Of a stretch of 64,000 nt of DNA, positions 2,868 through 62,604 are shown in pieces. A model generated the notes under the pieces. The model was not told where the DNA came from, searched no databases, and saw only the letters and a program-made list of their open reading frames with translations. The position numbers and the translations under genes were made by a program. Every line of letters begins with the position of its first letter. Within the stretch, counting starts at the first letter, position 1. Source of the stretch: Trebouxia sp. TZW2008 (taxonomy: Eukaryota > Chlorophyta > Trebouxiophyceae > Trebouxiales > Trebouxiaceae); NCBI GenBank assembly GCA_002118135.1, contig BDIU01000074.1, positions 1 to 64,000 of the forward strand, in the 5' to 3' direction.

Positions 2868-3100
2868 CAGCACTCTGAGAGGTCATCCTTCCTGGCGATT
2901 AATCAGCGCTTCAGATTCATGGCTAGTATCCCTTCCTGACAAGGAGTAAGCATTTCAGACTTGTAGCATGACTGAACCAATCAAAGCCTCTGGACATTTG
3001 CTCATGGTAGCCAGCGCTTCTGAAACATCAGGCAGTTGAGGGGCTTGCAGAAAGAAACATGAACATCACTTGCTGGCATTCTGAGAGGTAGCACCTCTCA
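2868..3100 (-). repeat. Echo of the last SRFR1 exon, beyond its stop
   Basis: Two overlapping, diverged partial copies of the region around the SRFR1 stop codon lie downstream of it. Shared landmarks are the segment matching the final codons and stop (about 2918 and 2957 against 3118) and a block ending in GGCAGTTG.GGGGCTT near 3030, which matches 3195-3210. They show that copying also occurs at gene ends and is not limited to introns. Confidence 0.7.
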
Positions 3101-3117
3101 GGCAGAGCAGTTGTGCC

Positions 3118-6100
3118 TCAGATTCGTGGCATGTCTGGGCCATTCAAAGCCTCCAGCCGTTTCCTCATGGTGTCAAGCACTTTTGCTATCTCAGGCAGTT
3201 GTGGGGCTTCAGGCTGCTGAGGGCCGTCCTCTGGGGCATTTGCCCTTTGAGGCTGAGAGGCTGCCGACTCTTTTGTGACTGAATGCGTGTTCCCGTCTTC
3301 GTCTTCCTTTGCTGCTGGCACGCCCTCAGCAAAGGCACTGGGAATTGTTGTTCCTACAACGCACAGAGTCGTGACTGGCACAATGTAGAAAGGCAATCCT
3401 TGAGCACAAGCAGATGCACTTAATTTCCATAGCACTGACAAGCAACAGCAAAGTCACTCTGGCTAGGACTCTGGCTACAAGTTCTCTTCAGACCCGTGAA
3501 TGACATACCTGCAAGCGTGCAGTCGACGCATGGAATCCTCTTGGACATTGGCATCAGTCTGGTTGCTGCCTCCTTGACTGCTGACACGGCCGATACCAGC
3601 ATTCATCTTTGCAGGCTAAGTCAAGCTTGACAGTGCACTCTACATTGCAACCTAACAGTGCAATTACCTTGGACGTTTGCGTCAGTCTGGTTGCTGCCTC
3701 CTTCCACTTGACTGCTGACATGGCCTGTGCTGGCAGGAGTGACAGCTGGCGGCCCGCTCATCCCAGGCACATCAGCCCTGGCTGAGTCAGCCGTAAGGCC
3801 CTGCCCTGAGGGGGCATGAAGAAGGGATTCTCTTGCTGCTGGAGGGTACAACCAGGGACTCACACTTTGAATGAAGGCAGTGGGGCTACGGTTCAGAATG
3901 GCTTCCCAGTCCACCTGATAGTCCTGCAGACAGGCACATCTTGACTTTAGCCCAGATTCCTTGTGGAAGTTGATTCTGGGGGATTAATGATCTGCGTGCC
4001 GGGAAGCCCTTCGGCACGCAGATCAAATGCTGGGGGATAAAGTCAGGGGCTCTCACACTTTAGATGAAGGCAAGGGGGCTGCGTGACAGTATGTCTTCCC
4101 AATCCACCTGATAATCCTGCGCAGATTTGTTTTTGCGCAGAGTCCTTGTGGAAGCTGATTCTGAAAGTCACGCTCTGCATGCCAAAGGGACTCTCCCGCT
4201 GCTGGGGGGTACAGCCAGGGGCTCACACTATGGATAAAGGCGGCGGGCCTACGGGACAGAATGGCTTCCCAGTCCACCTGATAGTCCTGTAGGCAGCTTG
4301 TTTGCTTATCAGCGCTTTTGGTATGCAAAGCAGCTGTTTGTAGGGAGGTTGCTGCAAGGCCCTGCCCTGACGGGGTGTGAAGAAAAGGTTTTCTCGCTGC
4401 TAAAGATTGCATTGAGGGGGTCACAATTTGGCATAAAGCAGTGGGGCTGCGCGATAGAATGGCTTCTTACCCACCTGAAATCTGCAGACAAGCGCAACAT
4501 CACGATTTCACTTTGTGAATGATGATCACTTCTGGCGACGAATGGCCAGGACTTCAAATCTCAAGAAAAGTACGTAGCAGCTGACTTTTTGGAGATGTTG
4601 CATTCCGCCATGTATGCTTTGAGTGCGTTCTACAAGCTTGTGCAGGGACTGACCAGATGCAGGCAGTAAAGCTGGGTGACAGGATGACTTCCCAGTCCAT
4701 CCATTGTATAACACAGGACAAACATGAAAGACTGAAGATGGAGGCGATGATGAGCATGTCAATAGCAAGGAAATGACCCGACTTGGGGACGTAGGCAGTG
4801 ATAGGCATGTCAGCAGCCAAGAAGATAGCTAGCACAGTGATGTAGCCCATCACAGCAGTGCCTCGCGCTGGGGGCGTAAAGTTGTAACAGTACTACACCG
4901 AGTTCAGGAAGCCATTGTCGCACTGTATTTTGCAAGAGACACACAAGTGATGTACCTTGGGGACGTAGGCAGTGATGGGCATGTCAGCAGCCAGAAAGAT
5001 GGCGAGCACGGTGATGTAGCCCGTCACAGCTGTCCCTCGTGCCAGGGGCATGAAATTGTACCAGTAGTACACAAAGGTGAGGGCTGAGTGCGCTATCTGG
5101 GGCTTGTTGCCGCTGCATAGGGCATCTAGCAGCATTTCCCACAATTGGTCAAACTCCTGCATGGCAAGCAAGCAGTGTGTTTTGGCACACAGCAAGCATA
5201 GAGGCAATACTTTCCAGACGTACACAAAGACGAGGGCTGAGTACGCTATCTGAGGCTTGTTACTTTTGCACAGAGCATCTAGTCATGACATCATTGTTGA
5301 CCTAGGTCCACACTTCGTGCAGGATTTCTCAAACGGGAAGACAGGGCGCATGAGCAGATGAAAGGGGCTTTGATTGCTCCAGTATGTACCTAGCTGGGCC
5401 TGCTGAGCCTGCCTAGCATGCATACTGAAAGCAGAGAATAATGAAGAAAGGAGAAAACAGCTGCGTATGTGGGGGTTGAGTGTGCAGCATAGGCTCACCT
5501 GGTCAAAGTCCTTCCATCGGGGTGGGGTGACTGGAGTACGGATGCTGAACTCATATGCATCAGGCTGGGTAGGCACCTTCACAATGGTCAGCCTGGTGCC
5601 CTCCATGGTGTGCCCTACAATCAACAAATGCCCTAAGAATGGCCTGCAACATATTTGTTTGTCAGGCAATTCCCTAAAAATGCAAACTGCCAACAAAGAA
5701 GCACTCCAGGCAGTTGCTATACAATCACTATCGTGGTTTTTTGAAAACCCAACAACAAGCTTGTTGGATAAACCAACAAAGTGACAACTTGAGCTGGTCT
5801 CTGTTTGAACGGCTAATGTGTGACAAGCTGGTCAGGATGTCATGACATGGCCTCATGACAGACCTGCCTTCAAATAGGCTTAGCCATGCAAAACTCCTTT
5901 CAGGTTGTGATGCAGAAGTTCACAGGATACCTGGGCGGGAAGCGGAAGCTATGGGCACGACCACCCAGCTGTCCTTGCCAATGGCCTTCCACATCTCAGC
6001 AGCTGTGCTTGCCGCCTGCACCTCTGCCTGCTTGTTTTCGCCTGCTAGACCTACTGCATAGCATGCGCACGGTGGCTGAATGGTGCATGCAGAAAGAGAG

Positions 6101-9100
6101 AGGAATGGCTATGGGAGGTACCACCCAATTGCCTTTGCTGATGGCCTTGCACACTGCAGCAGCTGTGCTTGCTGCCTGGACCTCTGCCTGGTTGTCCTCC
6201 CCTGCTAGACCCACTGCATAGCATGCGCATGGTGGCTGAGTGTTGTACGCAGAAAGAGAATGGAACGGCTATGGGAGGCACCACCCTATTGCCTGTGCTG
6301 ATGGCTTTTCCACATGGCAGCAGCTGTGCGCACTGCCTGGTGCTCTGCCTGCTTGTTCTCCCCTGCTAGACCCACTGCACAGCATGCGCACAATGCCGTA
6401 ATGTTGGATGTAGAAAGAAAGAAAGGCTACAGGGAACTTGCCCCCCATCAAGCTGTCTTTGCCAATGGCTTTGCAAACTGCAGCAGCTGTGCTTGCCGCC
6501 TGGACCTCAGCCTGCTTGTCCTCCCCTGCTAGGCCCACTGCACAGCATGCCTACAATGCCTGAGTGCTGTGTGCAGACACAAAAAGGAAAGACTGTGAGC
6601 ACGGCCACCCAGATGTCTTTGCCAATGGCTGTCCACATCTCAGCAGATGTGCTTGCTGCCTCTGCCTGCATGTTCTCCCCTGCTGAGCCCACTGCACAAC
6701 ACACGCGCAGTGCTTTGATTTGACAGATTTGGACAGGAGTTAAATCTATCATACTAAGTCTGCTTAGCATTACCATCAAACCGTTTCACATGGTTTGTGC
6801 CTAGCAAACACTTGGCAGTCACAGGCATCAGATATAGGTTGTTTGACGTCTGCAGATGGATTCAGCTACTACAGCTCTTACAGTCACAGCTCCGTGGTCA
6901 GCCCTGTATTAACCTCTTTGCAGAACAAGAAGGCCTGTGCTGACGATAGCGGGTGTTGATTCAAGTTCAATTCCGAGAAGGAACATGCTCTACCTCAAAG
7001 CAGCTAAGTGTACTCAAGATAGTGGCAATGCAGATGATACGTTTGAGCACAAAACCTTTTGCACAAGCTTGCAGCAATGGCACTTGCAGCCACCAGGGCT
7101 GCTTGCATTGCTGCAATCCCACAGTGCGCGAAGAGCAATAAAGTAAAAATTTAATCAGTGCTCTCCGCCACAAATGTGATAGCAGCAATACAAGCAGCCC
7201 TGGTGCCTGTATGTGCCACAGCTGCAATGGCAGCTGCAAACTGAACATCTCATACAGTTGATAACAACATGAGTGACGACAATGGTAATGCTGTCAACGA
7301 TGATGATAATGATCATGGCTGCAGTGCCATGGGCTGCAATGGCAGCTGCAATCAGCATGGTTGCTTGCACCTGTTGCAATGTCTGTAGCAGCGAAAATAA
7401 GCAATGCACCAGGCGTTCCAAGACCACCTGTCTCACTTTCACCACAGCTGTAGCATTTCATGACTGTGGGCATAAGCTGAAGCAGCCTGTGCTTTCTGGC
7501 ACACCTGGCTTTTTGTGGGCATCAAGATGTGCCCTTCCTGATGATGCTGATGATGATGATGATGATGGCGATGCTGATGGTGATAAAGAAAATGATGGTG
7601 ATATTGATGATGATCATCATCTTGATGATCATGATATTTGCGACAAAGGTGATTGGGTTACGGGGCCCAAATGCTGTTTGACAGTACATTTACGTGCATT
7701 TATGCTGTTCCCTGGGCAGTGAAGAACTGTAAAGCACAAGGGTGTTCGACATCACACCTGGCTTGTTGTGAGCGTCAAAAGTGTGGCCCTCCTGAGCAAT
7801 GACCTCCTTCATCAGCTGCAGTGCCCGCTCAAAGTTCATATAGTAGCGCACACACTTGGTCTGGCCGCTGAACATGGGGGTGTGGCTTCCAAAGCCTGCC
7901 TCAAACTCTTGCTTGGTCAGCAAGTCCACCCAGATCACCTGCAGCAATGCAACAGCTCATGTCTCTGTCAGATGTGGAATGCAGATATGAAGTTGCCACA
8001 AGAGGCAGCTTCAGTAGAGATGTGAAATTGTCACAACAACAGAAGTCTTCAGTGGGCTACAGGCAAATGCTTTCAAATCCTGCCTTCAACTCTGCCTTGA
8101 TCAGCAAGTCTACCCAGATCACCTACAATATTGCAGCAGTTCGTGCAGTTGTCATCTTGCGGCACTGACTAGACCACGGCAGTGAAGGTCAGGGACTGTC
8201 ATGAAGGGTGATTAATGAATGGGGGACAACTGACTGCTTCCAAAGCCAGCCTCAAATTCTGCATTGGTCAGCAAATCTACCCAGATCATCTGCAGCAATT
8301 TGCAACAGCTCATGCAATCATCAGCCTAAACTGATCCCCAGCCTAAACTGATCCCCACTGAGCCTCATGATTTTGGGCCTTCTGTTTAGTGCAGATGTGG
8401 AAATCTCATGCTGGGTGATCATTCCAGTGGCAGCAGGCAACCGCTTTCAAAGCCTGTCCCAAAATCTGCCTTGATCAGCAAGTCCACCCAAACCACCTGC
8501 AGTGTGACGGGCTGGCTGTCAACATAGCAGCTGATACTTGTCCATGAGTCAGCAGCAACAACTGGCATGCAGCGCTGACGCTTCACTCAGTTTTGGTTGC
8601 CTTCAGTCGATTTTGATTGGCCTGCTGATCGCTAAACAACTATGAACAGCCAAAGCAGGTCTGACAACATCCAGCAGAGCAAACATGCAAGGAAGTCATA
8701 GATGGGTTTGCTTGATGTAAATGAGATTCTTCGACCACATGATGCACTTGGACATGCATTTTGCCTAAAATCCCTGGGCATGACATTGTCTTGTCTGAAA
8801 TTCAATGGGTTGAACGTCAGACAACCTTACCGTGACACACAGAACAGGCCAGCCTGGTAATACAGAACTTGAGCCACACACACTTTGCGCCTACAACATG
8901 TGACCTGTTATGCTAATTAATGCGCACCTGATCATTGGGTTCTGATAGCTGCCGCCATCTGACTGGAATGTCCATAGCGTCTCGCCACTTGAACTCGTGC
9001 TGCCCCTTGTCAGCGTCAAAGCCGCCCACACTTGACCCAGCAGTGTCCACCATCACCTTCCTCTCTGCTTGCCTCTCCTTTACCTGCAACATGACGCACC

Positions 9101-12100
9101 ATGTGGGTCAAGGATTAGTCAGTGAAATCCCTCTGATCCTTTGTGTTTGCTTTTCCCTGATCTGCCACATCACACCATATCATAAATGGAATGTCGTCTG
9201 TGCTCTCTGTTCGTCTATCCTTCAGCCGCAACATCACACGATGTCATGAGTGAAACGTTGAAGGTGTGCTGCGCCTGTTCGGCGTCAAAAGCGCCTGCGC
9301 TGGAACGAGCAGTACCCAGCATCACTTCCCTTTCTGCTTGCCTCTCTTTCACCTGCAGCGCCAGACCATGCTGTGTAAAGTGCAATGATGTTTGCATCAT
9401 TCTGTGGAAGGGCTGTAGCTCTGGTTGAAATCATATGGCTGAGGTCAGCATGCATGTTCTCCTGCTGCTGTGCTTTGAGTCCAAAGTCATGGTTCAAAGC
9501 AAAGCAGCAGGCTTGGAAGAGAAAGGGTCCTGGCTTGTGCAGCTGTACGACAGGCAGATTGAGGGACAGGGCACAAGTTCAAGCAGCGCATATGATCTGC
9601 TGAGGGCAGACAAGGAATACAGGCAAACGCAATTGGTGGCGATGGGTCATGGCCGCAAGGCCAAAAAAGGCGCATTGATTGGCGCACAAGGCAAGCTATA
9701 CCTCAGTAATGTAGCTATTGATTATGAGAGTGATGGAACACACTAGCATGCTACAATGCAGGTTTGGGCCTGACATTGTGAGCAGAAGCGTACTAGGTGA
9801 CAGAAGGCAAGCTACATCTCATCAACATAGCTGTTGAGCACACAAATGATGCAACCTTCAAGCAGGTCAAACAGCACATTTTCGGGAAGACTGGTACGCT
9901 GACTGTTGTGCGGTTCAGATGGACAGTATGAAGCAGTGTACCAGGTGGCGGAAGGATTGAGCCATCTCTATGGCAGCCAGGCCTCCCATACGCAGCTGAC
10001 GCTTGTTAGGCAGGAATCCTTGATGGTGGTAGACCAGCACAGCTCCAATGGCGTCTGCAGCCTCTACTAGCTGCTGCACCTGCACAATCAAGCGCAAAAT
10101 TAGCTAACAGAGTCAAATGCCTTGCTGACAGTGTTTCAGCACAGCTTGCATCCAAGGTGAGATTCAGCCATTGGCGCAAAGCTTGTTGGGCAGGAAGCTT
10201 GGGTGGCAGTATACTAGCACAGCTCCTTCTGCCAGCTGCTGCACCTGCACACCCAAGTCAAGGTCAGCTTATCTCTTGCTATAGGGGCACTCAATCAAGG
10301 GACAGTCTGGAGTTGAGGATGCCACAAATTGGACCCAGGCACTGCATGAGTGCCTGCTAGGCTTGCTTGCAATGTAGCTTAAACGCTTCACACAGGCAGA
10401 GTAATAAGCCAATACCATAAGCAACTTTGAAACGTGTTTATTTTGATGACGTGGCAGATGCTACTGACGAGCACACATCAAATTCCAGCAAGATGTCTGT
10501 CCCAATATACCTGTGCTTTGTCCGCAGGCGGCACTCTGGGAGGGTCAGTAGGGAAGGGGGGTTGCATGACGTACTGCAGAATCATCTCATGTGTTGGAGG
10601 CGCTTTCTTGCACCACTGCTCCTGCACAAGTCCAGCAGCCTTTGGTCAGGGGCATGAAACCAACAAAACCAATGCTAGCATCATGATGCAGGAAGCGCAC
10701 CTCAACAGCGACGCACAATAAGCCAAATTGACGCTAGAGACATGATTTCAAACGCACATATCAGCGGGGCCGGGCAATAAGCCAAGCCAATGCAAGAGCC
10801 ATGAGCTAAAAAGCACATGTTGCAGTTTGACATGGACAGCTTGTTGAGCTTGTCACACATAGGCGTGGCACCAGCGTCTCAGTGACTCAGCGGCCTGCAA
10901 AATTGCAGATCCTCTGACAGCAATTAGGCATGCTGCTGAGCTCCCTGAGAAGCTGGTGCTGTAGCTCAACATGCTTTTCATGGTTCATTGCATTCAATGC
11001 CTTTGCTTGACAATCAAGTTTCTGGGCTGACAAAGCTGTTGTGGCGCCAATGATATTGCAGCTTTGTTCACAGCAGCATGTGCACATGTGTGGTGCGTCA
11101 GCCTTGAGCTCAAGATGGCAGCTGCGCTCATTGCTGATGCGTACTGGGAATGCATGGCCATAGCAACATCTTATGGGTTTCTCCAACAGCAAGAGATGAT
11201 CTCTCAGGGACAGCATGCAGTGCGCCACAGGGCCGCAACGCTCATGAACAGGTGCGTGATTAGTCACAAGCTACATCGCACATGATATGTGACGCCAGAC
11301 AAAGCGCTGTATGCAAGTGGCGCCTTCTTTTGTGATGATTATTACCTTGAAGATAGGATGGAGCTCCTTGTCTAGGCAGTAAGAGAGTACAGGGTCATCT
11401 AAGTGCTTTCTAATGTACAGGGCGTGCTCTTTCTGGTAAAACGCCAGAAACTGCTGAGAGCGGGCCTCATCAGGCACCTTCTCTTTGTTTCCACTGTCTA
11501 TTGAGAAGGCCTTCTCATAGTCTTGCACTGCTTGCTCATGATACCCAAGGGCATGCTGGCAAGCACCTACGTCAATGCAGCACGGGGAACTTGCAGCACA
11601 GAAAACTTGTTATGATGAACTGTTGATCACACAAGGGCATGCTGGTATGCAGACACATCGATACAGTATAGGTAAACTGCGGTCTTTGAAGGATAGTCAC
11701 AGATGGCAGTGTTTGCACAAAGGGGCAAAAGATTGTGTGGCCTTGCATTTTGCGCATTCTGGTCAAGAGGAGGTGTGTCAGCATGCGCAGCAGATCACCA
11801 ATCACATGAAATTTTTGCAAGGTTGCGCACAACATAGAGAAAGTCTCTGTCAGGCATGCTAGCAATAGCCATCGCAGAACAGTGTGACAGCAGATATGGC
11901 TTTTGAAGTCAATTTGCTGTCAGTAATGATCTAACACCCCAAGCCCCAAAACATTGCTGTCGTGTGCGTAACAGAAGGGCCATACAAAAGCCTCAGATGA
12001 TGCAGCAGCTGGACTCCAGCTCTGACATAAAGCCTGGGAGCAATTTGCTGTTGTGCACAGAAAGCTGCAGGAAGAACTGAACAGCTCACCTCGCAAAAAG

Positions 12101-15100
12101 AGGCACTGGATGCGTTCAGGGTTGTCTTTCAGCTCTATTGCCTTGTTGAGCACCCTGATGGCTTCCCAGTGGTTCCCAAGGCCCTGCTTCATTTGAGCCA
12201 ACACTCTGATGGCATGTACGCCAGCATTATGAGGGTCCTTCAGCGCAAGCGCCTTCTTGAAGGCTGCTTCTGCCTCTGTCACATGCCCAAGCTGCAAGGG
12301 CACTGACAAGGTTTAAAATCTGTAACAAGGCCAACTAGGGCTCAACTAAGGTTGCACGCCAGCGTTGTGGGGTCTTCCAGTGCAAGCGCCTTCTTGAAAG
12401 CTGCTTTTTCGTCTGCCACATGCCCAAGCTGCATACAGAAACTGCGGCTAAGCGCATGCAGTGCAGACCCTTGTTACAGAACCTTCTAGCAGGCGATGGC
12501 ATGAACACCAGCATGGTGGGGATGTTTCAACGCAAGCGCCTTCTCGAACGCTGCTTCCGCCTCTGTCACATACTCAAGCTGTCTGGAACAGCCGCTGCTG
12601 AGTGCATGAGGTCAAAATGCTTGCAGAGGATATGGCTGCGGCTGTGGAGCAGATTAGGTGCTCACAGCGGTGCGATATTTTCAAACACGTGCAGCAGCCA
12701 TTGCCCAACAGGAGAATGCCCGACGGGGAATTGTAAGTCACATCTTGGTTTAGCAAGGCTACACACCTGTTGGTAGCAAGGCTGGCCGATGCTGGCAGCA
12801 AGCAGTCCACTTTGCGTGCCAACTATATGTCAGCACGTGGACCTCTGACACGCAATGACAGTGGAGCATTCACATGTAACCAAGCATGCTTCACATGCGC
12901 TCAGCCTTGCATCTCTGCCACATCGCTCTACTTCTGGTGAGCAAAGATGCAGATGACTAATGTGTTGCAGATTGCAGATATGTTGCAAATCAGTGGCGGG
13001 TGCTTCACAAATCATGAGAGCTGACCTCTTTTCTAGCTTGTGCCATGTTGACCCACGCCTCACGATGGTCAGTTTGCAAGTCAATGACTTTCTGGTACGC
13101 ACGGATGCCATCGCCAATGTCACCCATGCTTGTCTGACAAAGTCCTAGCAGATTCCAGGCTTGTAGATTCTTGGACTGATACTTGACGGCCTGCACAGCC
13201 ATGCATTGTATTCAGATAGCAACCAAAAGCCACTAAAGGTCAGGTTGGTTTGCTGTATGAGCCTACTGAGTATCAAAATGAGAAAAGAGAATGGCAGGCC
13301 AGAAATTGTGATTGAGCTTTGTGTAAGACATGGCTCTGACTCTTATTCACACTTGTATATCAGGGTGACATTCAAGACTTGCGATTGCACTCAAAGCTTG
13401 ATGCTGCAGGATTTGGAATCATACCTGCTTCAAGTCCTTGACGGCTCGAGCAAAGTCATGCATCTTCTGGAAAGTCATGCCACGCTCTGTGTGACACTCT
13501 GCTTTGGCATCAGTATCAGGCGAAAGCTCAATGGCATGCTGCAGATCCTGCAAGTACAGATTGCTTGTAAGCGACAGCATGCGCTGGGTTGACATTGTGA
13601 CTGGATGCCGGCCATTGCATTAGCAACTTGTTCATGACGCTCTGCAATGCTCAGCTTGCTTTTTGACATGCAATGTGCCGTACTTGAGTGGTCAACAGAT
13701 GTGGATTGACTTGTGAACTTGTGTTCCAGTCCTATGGGGTTGATGATCAGTCAATCAGGGAGTGCTCAGCACATCATTGTGAATTCAAGGCGCAATCATG
13801 CACCCTTGTTCACATGCAAAACAGTCATGCAGGGCTTGCATGTACTTGCAAGTGCTGATTCATCAAATTATGCAGGCCATTCTGCCTGCATTTCTTCCTT
13901 GGCAAATTCTGCTGAAATGAGACCAGTAGCAAGGTGTATTGCAGCATTCAAGAATGCAATAAGGGCAAGCAGTGTTGCTCACACTCAGAGCTTCTGCATG
14001 CAGACCAAGAGCTCCCCTGGCCTGGCCTCGCCGCTTCCAGCCATCTGCAAAGAAAGGCGCCTGCTCCACAGCAACTGTGAAGTCCTCAATCGCTCCTGCA
14101 TTGCCAAGCCCACATGCTAAATGTCACTGCTGAATAGCGACCTTTACATACTGAATTATTATGAAGGCCCTAAATATACAGTTCAAGCCCTTTTCAATTT
14201 GATTTTGCACCTCAGGACCCAAAAGTTATCATTGGAATCAGATGCGAGAGTATGCCAAGCGTTGCAGAGATAACTTCCAGTTTGGCAGCAAACAGGCTGC
14301 AGCGTACACCTTTCAATAAAGCTAAGCTGTGAGAAATGATGTGTGCCTACCTGAAATGCGAGCTGCAAGGCACGCCCATATTCACGTTGAAGCAGGTTTG
14401 AATGACCCTGTGTTGATGGGTTGGTTTGACATCTGAGGCTACCAAGGTGCAAGCTAGGCAAACATGTAGTTTGCATCCCTACCTTGGAGTTCCCTCTGCA
14501 GAGCTCTTGCAGTGCCACGGGCTACATGCGCGCCAAGGTTTGGCGACTTAGCATCTGTCCCATTGATGATGCCTGTCAGTAGCTTGTCAGCCTCATCTAG
14601 CTTGCCAGAATTGATCTGGGTAACAGCCAGACTGATGGCAGCTGATGAATCTTGTGACGCCACAGGCTTAGCAGGCTGCGACGGTGTTGATGGTCTAGCT
14701 ACTTGTGTTGATGGGTGTGCCACAGATGCCGTGCCATTCGCTATCACTTTGCTGCTTGTTATCTGCATCAACAGACGACACCCATCAGCCTGCTTGTGCG
14801 TTCAGATATGCCTGACATTGCTGTATTTGTCCTGTTTGCTCATGTGCAACCTTGCGACACCCATCAGCCTGCCTGTTGTACGGACATGGCTGACGTTGCA
14901 AACGTTTCCAAATGCCCTGTCAGGTGATGCCATGAGTGCTGAATATGACAACATTCATCAGCCTGCCTGTGGTCTCACATATGCCTGATGTTGCAGACAG
15001 GTGTGTTTGCCCTGTTGGGATAAGGCACTCACTTGAGACACCCATCAGCCTGCTTGTGGTTTCAGAGACAGCTAACATTGCAAACATATGCGTTTGGCCG

Positions 15101-15769
15101 GTCAGGTGACGCCATGCACTCTGACTGTGCAGTGACTGTCATTTTGTTTTGCTGGGAAGACTGACCATTGTGGTCCCATTGGCTGCAGCTTGGGGTGGCG
15201 CTGACCCTTGCTGGGGGTTGTCAGCATACAGTGCAGCAGCAACTGCACCAGGCACGCTCAGCAGCTTGTGAGCTTGTACAACCAGCTTGGCGTCTGTTGA
15301 AGGGGAGCAAGCTTTGACAGCCTGCTGCCATAGTTTCTTGGCTTCAGCCTCATACTGCGCGACAGCATATGAATGTCGCCTTGTCTTTTGTTTTACACGC
15401 AAAAGACCTGAGGGACTCACATTGCCCTTTTTGAGCTTGTGCAATAACAAGCCTTGGCGCACAAAAGCCAGCACAAACGGTGCATCGTGAGCTGTAGAGA
15501 TCTTGACAGCCTCTTCATACTCCTGCAAATACATGCATATGACTCAACACGAAAACAAACAAACATCACCTGCAGCTCGCGCATGTTCGCCTCACCTTCA
15601 GAGCTCGTCGATTCAGCTGCAACTCTTCATAGCAATACGCTCGATTGCATATCAATTGGCAGACCGCGCTGGTGTCACTGTTTGAAACTTGCGTGATCTC
15701 GACATCTAAACATTTGATGGCCGCAGCAAAATTGCGAGTCACCAATGCAGAGGCGTATGCAGAGCTCAT
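3118..15769 (-). CDS. SRFR1: SRFR1/TTC13-like TPR protein, 18 exons
   Basis: Exons, 5' to 3': 15596-15769, 15421-15522, 15166-15354, 14483-14762, 13983-14095, 13425-13547, 13026-13190, 12090-12291, 11346-11566, 10511-10621, 9942-10079, 8928-9083, 7758-7938, 5931-6053, 5499-5614, 4956-5156, 3668-3923, 3118-3353. All phases agree, giving about 1028 residues; Arabidopsis SRFR1 is about 1050. The N-terminal half holds TPR repeats (CNRAYCYEELQLNRRAL, DGWKRRGQARGALG, AWNLLGLCQTSMGD). The C-terminal half has landmarks I know from SRFR1/TTC13: GFLPNKRQLRMGGLAAIE, KWRDAMDIPVRWRQLSEP, FGSHTPM, MEGTRLTIV, FSIRTPVTPPRW, YYWYNFMPLARGTA, LAADMPIT and VDWEAIL..PTAFI.SVSPWLYP. SRFR1 is a TPR adaptor that restrains immune-receptor signalling in land plants. 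Its role in algae is unknown. The start is the first in-frame ATG; the longer open frame begins at a TTG. Most long introns hold exon-echo arrays. The least certain part is the 3' end (3353-3668), where another small exon is possible. Confidence 0.9.
3539..4715 (-). repeat. Echo array of the SRFR1 VDWEAIL exon
   Basis: The head of coding exon 3668-3923, with its acceptor, recurs upstream at about 4097-4122, 4269-4294, 4466-4490 and 4689-4712, spaced roughly 170-220 bp. The copy at 4269-4294 still encodes VDWEAILSR..AAFI..VSPWLYPP in frame. A copy of the exon tail lies downstream at 3539-3600. The coding copy is therefore the last of the acceptor-side series. Confidence 0.85.
4780..5285 (-). 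repeat. Echoes flanking the SRFR1 YYWYNFMPLARG exon
   Basis: Exon 4956-5156 has a copy of its 3' half on the donor side at about 4785-4890, still reading GYITVLAIFLAADMPITAYV, and a copy of an internal part on the other side at 5222-5285. This exon is thus flanked by copies on both sides. Confidence 0.85.
5931..6695 (-). repeat. Five-copy array of an SRFR1 exon
   Basis: The exon 5931-6053 is followed upstream (in gene sense) by four diverged copies. Their equivalent exon tops are at about 6213, 6374, 6537 and 6692, so the period is 155-163 bp. The acceptor CAG and a piece of intron (GCATGC.CA...) repeat with the exon. I chose the 5931-6053 copy as coding because only it keeps the donor and phase that join to the next exon (5499-5614) and the residues GKDSWVVVP expected here. 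Confidence 0.9.
7270..7640. repeat. GAT-rich low-complexity tract
   Basis: A run of GAT and related triplets (dense at 7537-7640, weaker at 7270-7330) lies inside an SRFR1 intron. It gives an Asp-rich open frame on the plus strand that I take as an artefact. Confidence 0.8.
7758..8505 (-). repeat. Echo array of the SRFR1 WVDLLTKQEF exon
   Basis: The head of exon 7758-7938 recurs at about 8085-8125, 8240-8295 and 8455-8503. Each copy keeps a recognisable CAGCAAGTC.ACCCA.A core and an acceptor-like CAG or TAG. Spacing is about 170-210 bp. Confidence 0.85.
8928..9360 (-). repeat. Echo array of the SRFR1 VKERQAER exon
   Basis: The head of exon 8928-9083 has a long, in-frame copy at 9270-9353 reading VKERQAEREVM...FDAEQAQHT. 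Shorter decayed copies of the splice-site region lie at about 9140-9165 and 9190-9232. Confidence 0.85.
9942..10255 (-). repeat. Echo of the SRFR1 GFLPNKRQ exon
   Basis: The head of exon 9942-10079 recurs at about 10165-10255, with an internal deletion. The block ending in GCTGCTGCACCTGCAC, which carries the acceptor, is nearly unchanged. Confidence 0.8.
12090..12580 (-). repeat. Three-copy array of an SRFR1 TPR exon head
   Basis: The head of exon 12090-12291 (LGHVTEAEAAFKKALALKDP) recurs with its acceptor at about 12360-12430 and 12495-12580, periods 137 and 150 bp. Both copies still read in frame as TPR-like helices (KAAFKKALALEDP and EAEAAFEKALALKHP). They lie in the preceding intron. Confidence 0.9.
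14763..15110 (-). repeat. Tandem intron repeat beside an SRFR1 acceptor
   Basis: The intron between exons 15166-15354 and 14483-14762 contains at least four copies of a unit marked by ACACCCATCAGCCTGC (about 14778, 14859, 14955 and 15040), period about 80-95 bp, starting right next to the acceptor. Here little or no exon sequence is included. Confidence 0.75.
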
Positions 15770-20684: not shown

Positions 20685-23600
20685 ATGCATTTGCAACTGC
20701 CTCAAGCGCGACAACTTGCTTGTCCCTGCTTGCATTCTTGTCACACCACTTCCAGACATGTGCTGGGACGTCAAAGAATGCGAAAATTCACGGTCTTAGC
20801 GCGGGCTGCGACGTCCGAAGCACAGCCACAGGGACGCAGGCGATCTCAAGCACAATCACTGCAAGTTGAACAGCTTTTCAGTCTGGGCCGAGAGGTCTTT
20901 GACACTGCTCTACAGACAGGCCCCAAGGGGTTTGCACGCTCAATACAAGCAGCAGGCGCGTTCGCTAGCATAGGCAGGTAAAGCTCAGGTACATATGTGA
21001 CTTGCCCACGTCCAGCCATGTACTGCACGCATCTTGTAATTATACGGCAAAGCCATTCATGTTGTATGTCGCTATACTGATCACGTGGCTCAGTCTCACA
21101 CCGTGCACTGCACCAGCAGAAAGTCAAACTCTTCACAGCTCAAAGTTGTGCACCTTGTTGCTGCAGGGAGTATGCACACAGCGCACAGCGTGGCCGCCCG
21201 CTTCCAACAGAAACTGTACTCAGAAAGTTGTTTGAAAAGCTTGGCGCAACCTATATCAAGTTGGGACAATTCATAGCATCTTCACCCACATTGTTTCCGC
21301 AAGTCTACGTACTGGAGTTTCAGAAATGTCTTGACAAAACAGACCCTGTGCCATGGAACACCATCAAAAAGACCATACAGGAGGAGCTGACACAGCCCAT
21401 AGATGCTGTCTTTTCCTCCATTGACCAGAATCCTTTGGCCACGGCCTCAGTAGCTCAGGTACACACAGCTGTACTGCGGGAGAGCCAGAAGGAAGTTGTT
21501 CTGAAGGTCCTGAAACCTGGCGTAGAAGACATCCTTACAACTGATCTCAACTTCCTGCTCATAGCAACAAAGCTGTTTGAGATCCTCAACCCAGAGATGG
21601 CTCGAGCATCCCTTGCTGGCATTGTCTCTGACATCAGAAGCAGCATGCTGGATGAAGTGGATTTCAGAAAGGAAGCTCGCCACATACAGCAGTTCTCCAC
21701 ATATCTAGACAACACCGGCATGCGGCAAGGCGCCACCTGTCCATTTGTGTACAAGCAGCTGTCTAGCAGAAGGTGAATGCAGCTAACTGTGCAAACAGAC
21801 TTGCCTACATCAGCAGCCTTGTGGTTTTGAGGGTTGTTGTCACCTCTGTTTTTGCAAGAACAGCAGTAGTCATACTCAGCTGCATGACTGCCTTTGACAG
21901 GCCAACAGCCTAGTAAGGGTGCTTGTTGACAGTTCTTGCAAACACCTTTTGTTGCACTGCCGCGTATGTCCAGTGCACTACTAGAAAAGGTCATGTTGCA
22001 ATCTGATGCATAAGGTGCAGGAATGCTGGAGCACTTGCAGGTCGCTGCAGGCTGTTGATGATGCGAGACTGCATGGCATCCTTCTCACAGACCTGGCAGT
22101 CATCTTCAGCTTCATTGCTGTTGCATATCCTCGGTACTCACCTAGCAGAGTGCCATGTCGCAAATCATGTCAGACGCACTGCCCATGTCCAGGAATGCTC
22201 AAGCTTCTGTGTGTCATTACAGGCTGCTGACTGTGGACAGCTTGCTTGAACAGCAGCAGCCATCTTCAGCTTCACGGCTGATGTTCACTATTCAGGCAGT
22301 CATGCTGCCATTTATGTCAGACAAATGCGACCATTTGCTTGTGCTCTCAGGCCTTTTAGAGCACCTGTGTGTTACTGCAGGCTACTGACAATATGGACAG
22401 GTTGCCTGGCGTCCCTGTCACAGAATTTTCTGCCATGTTGCAAGTGATGTCAGACATAGTGCCACCATGTACTTGTATTTTCAGGCATGCTTGAGCACCT
22501 GCGTGTTACTGCAGGCTTCTGACGATGGACAGGTTGCATGGCGTGCCTCTCACAGACCTTGCAGCCATCCAAAGCATGAGCTCGGCAGACCCTGAGCAAA
22601 CCCTCATCACCGCCCTCAACACCTGGTTCGGCAGCGTGCTTGGCTGCGAGACGTTTCATGCAGATGTTCACGCAGGTGACTGTCAACACCATCTGCTTAG
22701 ACCATCACCCCTTGATGTCTGAAAGCGCCTTTTTTGAGGAGATGCATCCTGCTCAGGCGTTTGCATGGCAAGCAAGTACTCGTCATCTGTTACTAGCCTC
22801 TGAGTTCATGCTGCAATGTCTTCACTCAAACTTTTGGGTTTTCAGCTTACAGAGCGTCTATCAGTATTATGGATTTTGTTGAGATCTACATATGGAACAG
22901 TCTGTTCCAGTCTGTGATTAATCAAGAATCCTCTTGCGGCTATTGCTGCCAGCATACTCATTTGCTGCTTAGGCCAGCTTTGCAATGGCCTCTGGCGCGG
23001 CGAATGCGACAAATCAGCACAGCTACCGTATCTGAGCTCATGGTACACCTCAATGGAAAATGCGCTGTGCCTACTTGCCTGGTCATGAATCTTGTGGAGA
23101 CATACTTGCTTTCATGCTTTTCTGACGCTGTGCAAATGGGCTGTACAATCCTGTTTTTCCTACAGGCAATTTGTTGGTCCTCAGAGACGGTCGCGTTGGT
23201 TTCATTGACTTTGGCATAGTGGGCAAAATCTCCCCAGTCACCTTTCAAGCTATGGAGGCGTTCCTGATGTCTACCATGACAGCAGACTACAACACTATGG
23301 CACGTGCTTTGATCACCATGGGTGTCACACAAGACAAGGTTGTTGTTCAGGTGAGCTTGCTGCAAGCATTGCTTTGCTGAAGATTGCAGAATTTTTGCTT
23401 GTTGCCTGTCCTGTTTCTACATATGCCTTGCAGTCCACTTGCTCTTGTTATGGACAGACAGTGTGGGCACAAGCGCAGATTGTGTTCACAGTGCAAATCT
23501 TGGCTCTTGACCAGAGCCTGTCCTTGAAAATATGCTTTCTCCATGTCTTGAGCAATCATACAGAATCTTGCAAAAGCGCAGCCTGTACCAAAAGCCAGAG

Positions 23601-41562: not shown

Positions 41563-44482
41563 TCAGACCTTGGCTTTGCCTTTCATGTTAAACTTCTCTT
41601 CCAGAATTGAAGCTGTTGGGTCCACTTCAAATCCCGGGTTGGTGATGCCAGGCTTCTCCCAGCGGTGCTGCGTCTCAATGATGCGCACTGCATGGACACA
41701 TTAGACTAAGCAGTTGAGCTTTGCCCAAACTTGATTTGCTGACACAAGGCTTCTGAGGGTTGTAACCTCTGCAATTGCTCTGTGACCACATTGCTCTAGG
41801 GAACACAGCACTCGAGAATCTCAGGTGCAGGATGTTGCCAAGAAGCTTGTGCAGAAGGTTTTTGTCACATGCCTGGTGCATGCAAGTGTCATAGACAATT
41901 TACATGTTGCTGGCCAATGGATGCTTGGCATCAGAGCTCTCACCTGTACCAGAGCCAGAGCGCATGACTATGGAGTTGCTTGTGGCACCTCCTGCGTAGT
42001 ACCTCACGCCATTGAGCAAATCTCCGTCCGACACACCAGTGGCTGCGAAGAAGACTTGCTCCCCAGCACACAAATCATCTGTGTGCAGAATCTGCAAGGC
42101 AGAGCAGCAAAGTCAGCACCAGGTCAACTCACAAGCACTGCATAAGGTCAAGAATAAGCATGCTGACAGTGACTTCAAGACAGGGGCTCAAGCATGAAAA
42201 CAAGCAGCACACTCTGAGCTGCAGTGCATGCCGACGTTGTGCTCAGTAATCATGTCTTGAAAGGCAGGATCATGACCCAGACTTGCATTACAAAGATGTA
42301 AGGCATCCCTATGTTTGTCTAACCAATGCAGGGCACAAATGTGGAATAAAGCAACATGTTCTGGGCGGCATTTGATTCAAACTTTGCCCTTAACAGTGAT
42401 GCTTTGGCACACATGGTGCAACTACACTTGCTGTTGCTCTGTGTGACGCTCTTTCTTGAGATGGATTCCTTTATTCTATACAAATATGACATCAGACTTT
42501 GCTTACCCTGCTGATGTCATATCCTGCCTGTTCAGCCTTCTGCCTCTCCTCATCACTGCGTGGCCATAGGCGCCCTTGCATTGTGCCACCCATACACTTC
42601 AGGGCTGCTGCAGCAATCACTCCTGCACACCATGACAGTAGCCTGATCAGTGGGTTCCTGTTGCTCTATGCCTTGAGGCAAGTCAAGCAGTCGGTCAGTC
42701 CTTGTGCTGATGGATACCAGTGCTGATGCATGCTTGGCACAGCATCATGAGGCTTGACATGCTCACCATTTGTGAGCGCATGTCAACTTGCAACATGCAT
42801 GATGCCTAGGAGCAGAGCGGCAGGTAGGCGTGTAACTCGCAGCATTGGGATACATGCGGAACAAGCCGGCCTGACAACACATCACTGCTGTAACAAGCAC
42901 CTAGCGTTTTTGCTGGACAATGTGGTGGATGTCATACTTGCGCTCAATACATATAATACCTTCTGGAGTACCACCAATGCCAAAGAGCACATCAACTGGG
43001 GCGCTTAGCTTGGCAACTTCAATGGCGCCACCCACATCACCATCAGAGATGAGCTTGATCCTGGCTCCAGCCTCCCTCACCTCCTTGATAATCTGATCAT
43101 GCCTTGGCCGGTCTAGCACTAGCACAGTTACATCCCTGCAAACAACTCCAGGGATTTAGAAAATGGGATGTTTCAGTCTTGTGGGACACACAACACTGAT
43201 ATCGAGGGTGCTAGCAAGACAAACATGAATCTGATGTGCAGCATAAGCGCTCAAAAGCTACAAGGAAGCATGTTCAGGTGCGCCGATTGGTCAGAGAAAG
43301 TCATGTACAGCTCTGCAGACACTTTAAAATGTCAAGCATGTTGTGAAACGCAAGACCACTGAAAGTGCTATAGCACTGTTATAACATGTCATGACATGCC
43401 TGCAGTAATAGCAAGTTTTGCACGTGTGCTAAAAATTGATTCTCACCCAACAGGTTTGTTGAGGGCCTTTGCTACTGCTGCCAGGTTATCAGCAATGCTC
43501 TTGTCCAGGCTGACAGACTTGGGGTCAACAGCAGGACCCACAGCAAGCTTCTCCATGTACATGCATGGGCCAGGGTCAAACAGTGCGCCACGCTCAGCCA
43601 GTGCAATAACACACACTGCTCCATTGCGGCCCTGCAAAGAAAAGCTGTGTGTGTCATTCTCGTACAAAAAACACTCATTGAACACAGTGCTCATCATCAC
43701 TAGCCAAAACTAATTTCATGCACTGACATGTTCTACAATACCTTACATTATGCGTGATACTATGCTAATTTTTTGTGAAAATCTTTTGCATTGCCCTGCT
43801 CAACTGCATAAGCAAGGATTGCTTGACTGAGTGTGTGCCTTGAGCGCTTACCAGAGCAATAGAAGTTGTGCCATCAAGAGGGTCAACAGCGATGTCGACC
43901 TGAGGCTCTAGGGTTCCATTGCCAATTTGCTCTCCACAGTAGAGCATTGGGGCCTGAGTTCAGTCAGTCCAAGAATTACTGCACAGTCCTTGCAAGCATC
44001 TCTTGCAAGCAATCGCTGCTCAAACTAGCAAATTCCAATTCACCTCATCTTTCTCCCCTTCACCAATGACAATAACTCCATCCATGTTGACTGTGTTCAG
44101 CACTTTTCTCATCATGTCTACTGAAGCCTGCGGCCAATGGTATACACTTTTTGCCAGCCAAGGCGAGAGCTAAGGGTCGTCTGACTTGTGTGCTTGCTGC
44201 AGAGAATATGACCTGATCAGCTGCATTCTTGTCGCCTCTTCCATACCACTTGCCACCTGCCAGAGCTGCTGCTTCTGTGACACGCACCAACTCCAGAGCA
44301 AGGTTTCTCTGGACATTCTTGTAGTCTGGACCTTGCTTCTTGGCTGAAGCACGAGCAAAATCAGTACCTCTTGATGCTTGAGCATGCATATTGCTGTCAT
44401 TTTCAAATAGGCTGCACTGATCAGACAATCCTGATTGTGGGCTTACGTGCTGGCCGTCGCCCATTGTTGCTTCCGTTGCCAT
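41563..44482 (-). CDS. glpX: Class II fructose-1,6-bisphosphatase (GlpX/cyanobacterial FBP-SBPase type)
   Basis: Eight exons, 44213-44482, 44044-44127, 43852-43953, 43447-43631, 42960-43135, 42507-42622, 41944-42091 and 41563-41687, join in phase to about 401 residues. Bacterial GlpX is about 330-345, so there is an extra N-terminus of about 55 residues. Signature blocks appear in order: [60 protein letters not shown] (metal and phosphate site), [80 protein letters not shown] and [11 protein letters not shown]. It removes the 1-phosphate from fructose-1,6-bisphosphate; cyanobacterial forms also act on sedoheptulose-1,7-bisphosphate in the Calvin cycle. The leader is acidic in part and not a clear transit peptide, so location is open. 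A GTAAGC inside exon 1, after codon 12, could mark an unseen intron. Introns lack echo arrays. Confidence 0.95.
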
Positions 44483-58090: not shown

Positions 58091-61000
58091 ATGTTGAGCT
58101 GCCTGTGCTGCGGGCCCCTCCCTCTCGAGGGGGGAATACCTGGCCACATTAATTTTCAGGAAGAAAGAGCAAGGCGCAAGTCTGGCTATGTGTCTCCTCC
58201 TCCTGCCTGTGATGTCACTCTGCCAGAGCAAGTAAGGTGGCAACAGATGATACGTTGCCTGCATCCATACATACCAACTGTACGCTGACAGACTAACCCA
58301 ACATGCAGCGTGCAAGACGCGTACAGGCAAGCATAGCACTCAACAATGGCCGATTGCTGTTATCAGGTCAGGAACCCTGCATGTTCCTGACCTCTGCTAG
58401 TGAACCACAGACAATGCAGAAAAGCATAGAAACCTCTCTCCCATACCTGTCACAGGTGTATTGACAAGAGCCAATGCGGTCACGACAAATCAGCGAGTTT
58501 ACCAGAAGGTGTGCGCCTGTGTTCCTGTGCTCATCACTATTGCAGCTCTTGCTGAATGAACTCTTTCCAGCATCACTGACCAAGCATGTTGAGCTCATGC
58601 GACTTGCATATGGCAGGAAACCATACAGCGAGAGGTGACTAGATATAAGCAGTCTCACATACAGCAAGGCACTGCTTATGGCGAGCTGGATCACCCAAGC
58701 TATGACAGCACCACTTTCGAGGAGCTGCATATGGCAACAGTCAGTCATCAGGCAAGTTCTGCATCATCACTTGTGCACTGAGCGCAGCATACCACAGTGA
58801 CTTCTCTTTGTGACGTCTGCTTTGCTTACCAAGTTAACTGTCCTTATACCAAAATGTCCTTACTCAGAGGTGCCATTGTAGTCAAAACACAGTGATTTCC
58901 CAACTGCATTGTCTCTACATCAAGATTGTCCTTACATTGAGTGTCCTTTCAAACAGAAGCTGTTGTACTACATCAATTCTCACAATGAGCGATGCACTGT
59001 ATGACATGCCATGCCCCTGATTCAGCAGCAGACATGACTATATCTGTCAAATTGTGAGATGCATGCACCGCCTGCTGCTTGTGCGTAGCTGTCTCTTACC
59101 ACAAACATCATCACAAGCCTGATGCACTGTGTACTTCTGCTGTTGTTCTGCATGGGCAGGGCGATATCCTTCCTGTCTTTTTGACAGTGGAGGCTTATCT
59201 GTATTGTGGTCAGGGACACTTTCATAATACTATGGAGGTTACAACAGGGCTGTGTCAAGTTGTGTGGTCAGGTCAAAGGTTCAAACCCTCCAGGTCGGCC
59301 TGGGAAGATCTGGAATGACATTGCTTTGTCTGACTTTCAAAAATTGAATGTTAGATGTCCATACAAAGACGCTCAGCGCAAGCCTGCCTGGCGAGACAGG
59401 ACTTGAGAACCACACACCTAGCACATGTGCTGGCATGTGTGTTCATTGTTGTTATTGTTATGAGGGTTGTGGCTAAAAAGCAGCTTGCTGACAGCAGCTG
59501 TCATAAACAGCTTGCTTTCTCACCACAGGAAGCCAGTCCAGCTAGCTGGGTCAAGCAAGTGCAGAATCAATCCAACCATTGTCAAGCAAGCAATCAGGCA
59601 TGTAGGCAGTTTGTCAGGCCGTCAGTCAGTCAGTCATTCACCCTGCCAAGATGCTGTAAGGGAGATGGCAAAACGATGACCTGCATGGGTTGCTCAGTGT
59701 TACCAAATCATCAACCAATCTGTGTGTCGTCTTGTCCAGCTACTCTAAATGTGCTGGCATAGCAGTGATCTGCATGGTCTAGTTGAGATCCTGCATCAAT
59801 CAATCCAGGAATTGACCAATCACCCAGTCAAGTGATCTGACATTTGCCCTGTCTAGGTGCTGTAAGTATGGTGGCATGGTGATGACCTACACGGTCTAGT
59901 TGAGGTTTTGGACACTCCAGCAGGCTGCCTAGCAAGGGGCCTTCACTGCCAGTCAGTCACTTGACCAAAATGTAAGTTGTCCAGGCAATGAAGTGCTCAA
60001 TTTCTCCAACAACCAACCTCAGTCACCTTGTTCAGGTGCTGCAAGTATGGTGGCATGGCGATGACCTACATGGCCTAATTGAGGTTCTGGACACCCCAGC
60101 AGGCCGCCTAGTGAGGGGCCTGTACTGCCAGGGCTTCATGTTTGGGGCTTCTTCTAGGGGCTGGAGCTGCACAGTGCCCCAGGAGGATTACTCAGTCATT
60201 GGGGATGACTTCCAGCTGTTTGCGTAAGTGTCAGTGGTAATGCGTTCCAAGGATTGGCATACATTTCATTGCTAATGACTCATATCTGTTTGCGCAAGTG
60301 GGAACTGCCAAGCTGGATTTGACATTCAAAGCTAGCTATTCAACAGGTAGCATAGCCGTGTATGCTGTGCATGAAGCGCTTGCCTTTATGGGTCCAGCAA
60401 GGAGCATACCCTCTTTGCCAGATGCTCATCAAAGATAAGCCACAGAGTCTTACTCAAGACATCTCAGCTGGTCTTCATTGATGCAAGCAAACTGTCAGGG
60501 CAAGTGCAGCTTGATGACCAGAAATATGACGCCGTCATGAGAGCGCAGAATATGTACATTGGGTCTGGTACTGAAAGGTTTGTGTGCATGCAGGTTTGAT
60601 TTGCTGCTGCGTCCTGCCACAACGTCCTACCTGTTCCCTGTCAGAGAGCGGTTTGAGTCCCTGAAAAGCCCAGATGCAGCAATCATCTCTGCTGCAAACA
60701 CTGGCAGTCAAGGTATATGCCCTGTCCTCTGCGTGACCAGGGTGCTGCATATCACACCATCTCAATTCAGCATTACATTTGCATGCAGTGCACCATCTAC
60801 CGACTAATTTATGCGCATATTTGCGAGAAGCCTTCATGTCATGTGGTGGCGTTGTACCAACTCTGTACATGAACACTGACCTTTCAACTGTGCCATATTG
60901 TGTTGCGCATGACGACAGGCACTGCCTTGTGCAAAATGGGCCTTAAACAGGTATATTGCTACACGTCGTTGCGCATGACAGCACATACTGCCTACTGTGA

Positions 61001-62604
61001 CATGGGCATTAGAAGAGCCAATGCATTGAGTTTGCTCACTTTTGCTGCAGGAGTGGTGCCTTGTCATCCCATGCTGCACTTGCATACCATGCACGATGCC
61101 AGAGACCTGCACCATGTTTGTTGTTCTTGGAACGATGCATGGGCTCTTATGACATGTTCACCAGGACAGCTAATATATTGTATGTGCACAATTTCGCTGC
61201 AGGGGTAATGCCTTGTCATATCATGCTTCAGTTGCATGCCATGAGAGACGCCAGAGACGTGCACAATGACCTGAAGAAGACTGCAGCTCTTGAGGTGCTG
61301 CATCAGCAGCAACTCGAAGCAGATGGGCAGCAAAGCACTCCAAGACCACCGTCTGATGCTTCACCAAGTGCCTCACCTCATGACAGCATGCATTGCCTAT
61401 TGTGACATGGACATCACAAGAGCCAATGCATTGAGTTTGCTCGCTTTTGCTACAGGCGTGGTGCCTTGTCATCCCATGCTTGAGTTGCATGCTATGAGAG
61501 ACGCCAGAGATCTACACAATGACCTGAAGAAGACTGCCGCTCTTGAGCTGCTGCATCAGCAGCAGGTAGAAGCAGATGGGCAGCAAAGCAATATTGACGC
61601 TGCAGACAGTGGTCTCGGAGCCAGCCTCACCTCGGCTGTTAGTCGCTTGCAGCTTGGGAGGAAGAACACCAAAGGCAAGACAGGTTTTGCAATGCCCATG
61701 CTGCTGCGCACCACCACACAAGTCCCTACATAGGCTGCTGCATGCTGTCATGTTGCTTCACAGCACGCAATTGTTTGTAGCACCACAATGCATCAGACTG
61801 AGCAAGCCCAATCAGATGGCCACCAGGACAAGCATGCTGTGCACTTGCTCCTGGATAGCATCAGCTTGCTACAGTATTGCACAAGTACACAAGTGTTCCT
61901 GACAGATTACTAGCTTCTTACGCTTGAGCCACTGCTGCATTCACAGCATGTGCAGGCGGATACTCAGTAATCAGCTTTGCCGTGTTGCAGGCGAGACGCT
62001 GTTGCCAAAGCACAAGCGCACCAGCAGTCAAGGTGTGTACAGCCTGGACAGACAGAGCAGCTCCATCAAAGCACTACATTCTAGACATGGCTCGCCCACT
62101 AGAAATACAGCAGCCTTGCAGAGTCCATTTCGAGATACCAGACACCGCATGCAGAAGACACAGAAGCTGCTAGACGTGTTGCAATTTGGGCAAATGCATG
62201 AGCAAGTCTCTGGGCAGCAAGCCGGTGACACAGAGCGCTTCTTGGTGGATGTTCTGGCAGCCCAAGATTACAAGAATGGAGCTCCAGCCGCAAAGCAAAT
62301 CTTGCCCTTGAGAAAGGTGCCTGAGTTGCAGTCTCTATTGCCACCAGACCGGCGGCATTCACTTTTGCCTCTGGAGAAACGACAGCAAGACAAGGGCAAA
62401 GGCGGCAAGCAACGCAGTAAAGGCACTGGTTGCCTGCCAGATGGGTATGTGCCTTTGATGGAGACATCATCGTCAGTTGCATCAGTCAGCTTGATGGATG
62501 AGTCTCAACTGCAACAGACTGCTCCTGTTGTTCGAGTTTCTGCCGAGCTGCTGAAAGCGCAGGGTGATGGCAAGAGCTCCAAGCCACGGCCAATCACCTC
62601 ATGA
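58091..62604 (+). CDS. Hypothetical multi-exon protein
   Basis: Supported exons: 58091-58231 (ATG, Cys-rich start MLSCLCCGPLPLEGG), 58546-58634 (LNELFPASLTKHVELMRLAY), 60036-60223 (VWWHGDDLHGLIEVLDTP...), 60594-60712 (FDLLLRPATTSYLFPVRERF), 61456-61683 (MRDARDLHNDLKKTAALELL) and 61991-62604 (basic tail to a TGA). The last four join in phase. Between 58634 and 60036 at least one exon is missing from my model; 58671-58747 is a candidate, ending at a GC donor (AG|GCAAGT). The N-terminal MLSCLCC might be lipidated. The C-terminal 200 residues are Ser/Gln/Lys-rich and probably disordered. I do not recognise the family. Echo arrays sit before the exons at 60036 and 61456. Confidence 0.65.
58830..58975 (+). 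repeat. Dispersed repeat copy 2 (TGTAAGGACA family)
   Basis: Inverted match to 34885-35040 over about 140 bp, with the same order of landmarks: TGTCCTTA repeats, GGTGCCA, CAGTGATTTCC and AACTGCATTGT. Both copies lie inside introns of unrelated genes. Confidence 0.65.
59206..59409 (+). mobile_element. LINE 3'-tail relic
   Basis: A short open frame ending at 59404-59406 reads GRPGKIWNDIALSDFQKLNV then DAQRKPAWRDR. The pattern GRP..W.D....D....N......A..R..WR matches the last ~40 residues of many non-LTR retrotransposon polyproteins. No other part of the element is present, as expected for a 5'-truncated insertion. It lies in an intron of the hypothetical gene. Confidence 0.55.
59640..60310 (+). 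repeat. Echo array around exon 60036-60223
   Basis: The acceptor-proximal head of this exon (GTGCTGCAAGTATGGTGGCA...GATGACCTACATGG) has a near-complete copy at 59857-59945 and a more decayed one at about 59648-59700. The distances are about 180-205 bp. A copy of the exon tail and donor (TGTTTGCGCAAGTG) lies at about 60276-60303. Confidence 0.9.
60905..61560 (+). repeat. Four-copy array of the RDARDLHNDLKK exon
   Basis: The head of exon 61456-61683 recurs at about 60900-60990 (weak), 61048-61115 and 61203-61400. The 61203 copy has an acceptor, the right phase and an open frame reading MRDARDVHNDLKKTAALEVL through to a TGA at 61403-61405. It could serve as an alternative exon. Confidence 0.88.

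Follow-up and report, generated by a model that had tools for sequence, protein, structure and literature searches.

We have analysed a 64-kb stretch (the window; bases 1-64000 of contig 72, which has 163,880 bases) of the genome of Trebouxia, a lichen photobiont (68.5 Mb in 527 contigs; GC 0.49), in which introns contain tandem, diverged copies, or echoes, of the exon edges beside them. Of 41 introns checked, 18 carry worn copies of part of a neighbouring exon, and this part is nearly always the edge. It is probable that these arrays are the remains of a genome-wide tandem duplication of stretches of about 150 bases, in which the copy joined to the exon stayed coding and the intronic copy decayed. 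The arrays had been described in an earlier sequence-only reading of the window; its observation is confirmed and its interpretation is partly supported. In size and composition, the genome resembles that of Trebouxia A48, given as 69.1 Mb and 49.7% GC in the accessible text of its description (PMC12712428).

Based on a BLAST comparison of the window with itself, there are 68 direct pairs of matches less than 1500 bp apart, one local inverted match and four distant matches, and no repeat pairs were obtained after one order-1 Markov shuffle of the window. The close direct pairs group into 24 arrays of diverged direct repeats, against the "about twenty" of the sequence-only reading. Junctions were counted in four genes, namely SRFR1, a PAS/PDEase_I phosphodiesterase (PDE), ABC1K and GlpX, whose introns number 41 and whose junctions number 82. 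A count by eye gives 20 echoed junctions, each of them covered or reached by its echo. Eleven of these are acceptors, all with their echoes upstream, and nine are donors, all with their echoes downstream; two rest on weaker matches (the SRFR1 exon 9 acceptor, E 2e-4, and the SRFR1 exon 11 donor, E 5e-4). Automatic flagging gave 33 of 82, because the echo of one exon edge was also scored at the opposite edge. A fifth gene, at 58.6-62.6 kb, has two acceptor arrays that follow the same rule of position. Exon heads are thus copied upstream and exon tails downstream in all 22 junction arrays of the five genes (13 acceptor and nine donor), as had been claimed. The rule is expected on geometrical grounds: when a tandem duplication spans a junction, the exon keeps its link to the outer copy and to no other. 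The coding copy does lie at the array edge, but this does not amount to a distinct rule, since any junction-crossing tandem duplication leaves it there once the protein is conserved. No complete exon copy with both splice sites occurs in any of the 22 junction arrays. Two of the 12 PDE arrays and one of the eight SRFR1 arrays are intron-only or nearly so, and the GlpX gene, with six introns, has no arrays.

The arrays are also found to lengthen the introns that hold them, as the sequence-only reading had suggested. Introns with echoes have a median length of 847 bp (n = 18), compared with 391 bp for those without (n = 23; p 2e-5). This raw comparison is circular if taken alone, because long introns give arrays more room. 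The more telling comparison is the one made after the array spans are subtracted, which also takes away the original unit: the echo-bearing introns then have a median of 373 bp against 391 bp (p 0.70). The echo-bearing introns were listed by hand, and SRFR1 intron 13 was included on the basis of an exon-interior echo.

The arrays are not limited to the four genes in which they were originally placed. In 282 kb of sequence, made up of 23 stretches including the window, we counted 105 arrays, or 3.7 per 10 kb, spanning 16% of the sequence; one shuffle per stretch left no repeat pairs. Arrays are present in 22 of the 23 stretches (21 of the 22 outside the window), with none in stretch L004. The stretches were not drawn at random, and L007, which is AT-rich and organelle-like, and L001, which is part of the window, were left out of the counts. 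Scaled up from these non-random stretches, the whole genome would hold about 25,000 arrays. The smallest offset per array has a median of 149 bp (quartiles 117.5-174.5) and is at least 220 bp in only six of the 105. This upper limit is probably real, because, when units of 30-1000 bp were simulated, those as large as the 840 bin were recovered, albeit from 12 arrays only; short units are harder to detect and so are under-represented. Matches in the sampled stretches are predominantly direct (242, against 16 inverted). Two sampled stretches hold further repeats of note: L023 has an inverted self-match of about 960 bp at 62-1023, 92% identical, which is a long palindrome or hairpin, and in L024 an array with a 192-bp unit runs through a long open reading frame (2927-4601), which suggests that some tandem duplications may lengthen proteins.

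Exons in the window were called with a purpose-built gene finder, trained on long open reading frames and then on its own output, whose splice consensus was CAG/GT for donors and TGCAG/G for acceptors (slash at the junction). The closest named relatives of the window's proteins come from Trebouxia strains, at 67-77% identity, so that the window is from a Trebouxia but apparently from none of these strains. The gene finder called several decoy exon heads inside arrays as exons, and these extra exons were removed from the gene models because the relatives are without them. SRFR1 (minus strand, 3181..15354) and PDE (minus strand, 25362..37981), each with 16 modelled exons, were modelled with alignment to Trebouxia P0068 and P0001, respectively, and the PF00233 match was found on P0001, the relative of PDE. 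Both align along their length with Trebouxia orthologues, although the outermost ends of both models are incomplete; relative to these orthologues there is a gap of five residues at modelled exons 1/2 of SRFR1 and one of two residues beside exons 11/12 of PDE. ABC1K (plus strand, 20840..24375, six modelled exons) was checked against Protein Data Bank (PDB) chains over part of its length, and so was GlpX, a class II fructose-bisphosphatase that served as the comparison gene (minus strand, 41569..44411, seven modelled exons). The fifth gene (plus strand, 58617..62604) was aligned to its Trebouxia relatives P0188 and P0189 and has a two-residue gap against them near the last junction. P0188 matches PF03420 (Peptidase_S77, phage prohead protease) with an E value of 1.5e-11, above the curated cut-off, which is odd in an alga. 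The relatives of SRFR1, PDE and this PF03420-like gene in Trebouxia C0010 apparently share one contig, so gene order is probably conserved.

In SRFR1, where all arrays are on the minus strand, acceptor echoes are found at exon 15 (3795..4496; coding copy at 3923, echoes at 4116, 4286 and 4481), exon 12 (5948..6713; coding copy at 6053, echoes at 6213, 6374, 6537 and 6691), exon 11 (7885..8502; coding copy at 7938, echoes at 8122, 8289 and 8496) and exon 6 (12208..12581), with one echo at exon 10 (8989..9357) and the weak one at exon 9 (10001..10244). Exon 15 has a donor echo that has lost its GT (3540..3725), exon 14 has both a downstream donor echo, again without GT, and an upstream exon-interior echo (4782..5282), and the weak donor echo of exon 11 lies at 7500..7795. 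Self-BLAST also found an array of two copies where the last exon ends, which is not a splice site (2955..3209), and the array at 14774..15116 is intron-only. An imperfect palindrome of about 160 bp lies within an SRFR1 intron (7069-7227).

The arrays of PDE, also on the minus strand, include acceptor echoes at exons 14 (26987..27422), 13 (28472..28936), 11 (31169..31566) and 7 (34362..34710). Donor echoes belong to exon 11 (29875..31123, in which seven echoes were read), exon 10 (31731..32297) and exon 5 (35647..36080), and single ones to exons 15 (26178..26404), 9 (32656..32933) and 7 (34024..34348). A short-period array at 25821..26136 is intron-only, and another at 29122..29475 is almost wholly intronic, with 7 nt of exon. 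On the plus strand, ABC1K exon 3 has acceptor echoes at 22018..22569, with the coding copy at 22515. The fifth gene, on the same strand, has one acceptor echo at the exon at 60036 (59847..60131) and acceptor echoes at the exon at 61456 (60974..61590), one echo head being at 61203; in the latter array the coding exon comes last among the copies, and neither Trebouxia relative has the other head. Elsewhere in the window, two distant repeat pairs (44754-44825 with 53531-53602, and 51839-51942 with 53619-53723) lie among reverse-transcriptase-like reading frames and are probably retroelement remains.

We propose that tandem duplication acted across the genome on segments of about 150 bases, presumably without regard to exons. 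Where a unit across an acceptor was doubled, the downstream copy would have kept its link to the exon and the upstream copy would have become intronic, with the reverse at a donor. Selection on the protein would keep the exon-joined copy, while the intronic copy would decay, for the most part neutrally. The position rule in 22 of 22 junction arrays, together with stops and frameshifts in the echoes, supports this course of events, which the sequence-only reading had likewise put forward. As to origin, we predict end joining of breaks with long staggered, filled-in ends; a break-repair mechanism is proposed because the copies are direct, tandem and bounded in size, in keeping with staggered-end repair as set out in the accessible part of PMC8355091. 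Direct head-to-tail copies (242 against 16 inverted) and a bounded unit (six of 105 at 220 bp or more) are both found here; the copies are too diverged for their boundaries to be placed. Nucleosome spacing or Okazaki fragments may limit the unit size, to judge from units of about 150 bp, and the duplications are predicted to lie mostly in the past.

A coding role for the echoes themselves is not supported by their private changes, although pN/pS (below) would allow mild constraint. These changes were sorted by codon position in seven acceptor arrays that have two echoes or more: those confined to a single echo number 37/28/40, and those confined to the coding copy 3/4/9. The changes private to echoes show no clear codon bias. 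In a search that included a positive control, 57 Trebouxia proteins related to PDE and SRFR1 gave no retained tandem partial duplication, and 34 others gave one.

Several observations weigh against neutral decay of randomly placed duplicates and have to be considered together with the alternatives on which they bear. Across 40 pairs of echo and coding copy in the window, pS is 0.354 and pN 0.120, and their ratio of 0.34 (0.28-0.39, bootstrap over 18 array groups) is below the 0.46-0.50 expected for echoes that were never coding, given a transition bias of about 3. Mild constraint, or third positions that mutate more readily, may account for the difference. Eighty pairs from other stretches give 0.37, a value that includes unchecked gene models, one place in L011 on both strands and low-complexity pairs in L009. 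Moreover, AG is kept more often than GT: in the four checked genes it is retained in 23 of 25 acceptor echoes, as opposed to GT in seven of 19 donor echoes (p 0.0002). Both values would suit echoes kept by selection because they work as acceptors, alternative or decoy, or as alternative coding sequence. So would the scores of the AG-bearing echoes on the minus strand: relative to every AG of that strand, 16 of 20 are above the 90th percentile. When only the nearest echo per array is counted, because copies within one array are not independent, the difference is AG 10/11 versus GT 5/9 (p 0.13), and in other stretches AG is kept in just one of five acceptor echoes, with the coding copy's dinucleotide kept in three of three donor echoes; these eight were chosen by eye from single-match arrays of the highest similarity, a choice that favours short matches. 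These counts weaken AG retention as a sign of use, and the loss of GT from 12 of 19 donor echoes, the unbiased private changes, the stops and the frameshifts also make selected echoes quite improbable. AG-bearing echoes may nevertheless be possible decoy acceptors, judging by their sequence. Thus, of the decoy splice sites expected by the sequence-only reading, many acceptor ones stand above background, but the donor ones have often been destroyed. The arrays also touch exons somewhat more often than random placement predicts (18 of 21 in the checked genes, compared with 13.6 in random shifts; PDE p 0.07, SRFR1 p 0.21, joint z 2.1). A mechanism that reads junctions, for example via the transcript, and puts exon ends into the intron would account for how abruptly homology stops near the junction in many single-echo arrays. 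We regard copying aimed at exon edges as very improbable, since intron-only arrays exist, several units carry intron sequence and exon overlap is not far from random; the special exon-edge rule of the sequence-only reading is not supported, and targeting need not be invoked. In the SRFR1 exon 6 array, echo flanks compared by eye with the preceding exon showed no match, which as a single array is no real test of copying from spliced RNA. Part of the excess may arise from the longer detectability of exon-edge pairs: simulations detected 247 of 500 intron-only pairs over an age range of 0-0.35, compared with 190 of 500 pairs at exon edges over 0-0.6, which makes detection time about one-third longer for the latter within these ranges. 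A smaller simulation (25 and 12 arrays) showed no detection bias, with 56% of detected arrays and 57% of true duplications on exons.

A further difficulty for the favoured explanation concerns the intron side of the units. In single-echo arrays the homology tends to end about 0-13 nt from the junction, and the intron flanks score 12-27 (nine acceptors) and 15-26 (eight donors), whereas neutral decay at equal rates predicts about 40-83 at an exon identity of 0.86-0.91 and 29-56 at 0.82-0.83. This sample was partly selected for high similarity, and the PDE exon 15 donor, which has 17 nt of exon and clear homology in the intron (score 62), was left out of it. Among all echoes examined, intron flanks exceed background (p 0.05) in only 13 of 31 acceptor and five of 22 donor echoes. 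Tandem duplication followed by gene conversion, in which the exon rewrites the exon part of the echo and the intron part drifts, would produce such flanks near background, and it would also explain why the copy that best matches the exon is not always the one that best matches the intron (SRFR1 exons 12 and 15; PDE exon 11 donor). Expansion within an array yields discordant matches likewise, and high synonymous divergence by itself can explain most of the lost flanks, leaving the arrays of L006, L020, L024 and one of L011 as exceptions; tandem duplication followed by gene conversion seems unlikely overall. A single rate of neutral decay for exon and intron parts does not fit the single-echo arrays of low synonymous divergence, and gene conversion or faster intron turnover are candidates for the flanks lost in young echoes. 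Finally, near-identical arrays are missing from the sample. Of 92 arrays whose match is 60 bp or longer, none is at least 95% identical, against 16-18% expected at a constant rate, and 10 are at least 90% identical, against 27-32%; duplication at a constant rate does not fit this spectrum. The dearth suggests that the process slowed after a past burst or that the assembly lost young copies. The missing near-identical copies, as if young arrays had collapsed, are also what an artefact of assembly or gene models would give. Such an artefact is hardly credible: the copies have diverged from each other, as the sequence-only reading had stressed, arrays occur in nearly every stretch and the proteins of the relatives align to exon sets that leave out the echoes. 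N is absent from the sampled stretches, as would suit, though not prove, a long-read assembly. A more far-reaching form of the tandem-duplication account would have a burst of nucleosome-sized duplications produce some 25,000 arrays and then stop, acting as a main source of intron growth, doubling the affected introns and leaving in them fossil exon edges and near-functional acceptors, a datable route apart from transposons and intron gain. We offer it tentatively and would not, on balance, expect all of it to hold.

Intron length is usually ascribed to transposons and to a slow balance of insertions and deletions. A measurable share of the Trebouxia introns here is instead long because their own exon edges have been copied in tandem, and the copies in each array can be dated against the exon that adjoins it. 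Should the absence of young copies prove real, it would suggest that this lichen alga passed through a mutator episode in the past. More practically, gene annotation must handle the decoy exon heads. Introner elements also add intron DNA on a large scale; the Trebouxia arrays differ in matching their own neighbouring exon or intron, with few distant matches within stretches. In the accessible text of the Trebouxia A48 genome paper (PMC12712428), the word "tandem" does not occur and "intron" occurs once, in the references.

Among the matches listed in the literature, a scope outside which most subscription papers fall, none treats exon-edge arrays as a source of intron growth, and the nearest case is the potato RdRp gene discussed below. 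As far as the accessible portions of the cited papers go, three known systems invite comparison. In human and mouse cells, end joining of staggered breaks makes small tandem duplications at sites of induced breakage (PMC8355091). These resemble the arrays in being direct head-to-tail copies of a bounded stretch that need no element, but they are small (the introduction speaks of insertions below 100 bp) and induced, whereas the Trebouxia units are about 150 bp, old and genome-wide. Tandem exon duplication, which gives rise to mutually exclusive exons (PMC6071210), similarly places duplicated exon sequence next to itself; in Trebouxia only parts of exons are involved, with a whole exon and both its splice sites in 0 of 22 arrays. 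In the potato RdRp gene, a tandem duplication across an intron-exon boundary created a new intron (PMC4974935; such duplications are reviewed in PMC3443670), and there, as here, the duplication crosses the boundary and copies splicing signals. The potato case is one event that led to a new intron, whereas in Trebouxia the copies lie inside introns and have added to the length of many of them.

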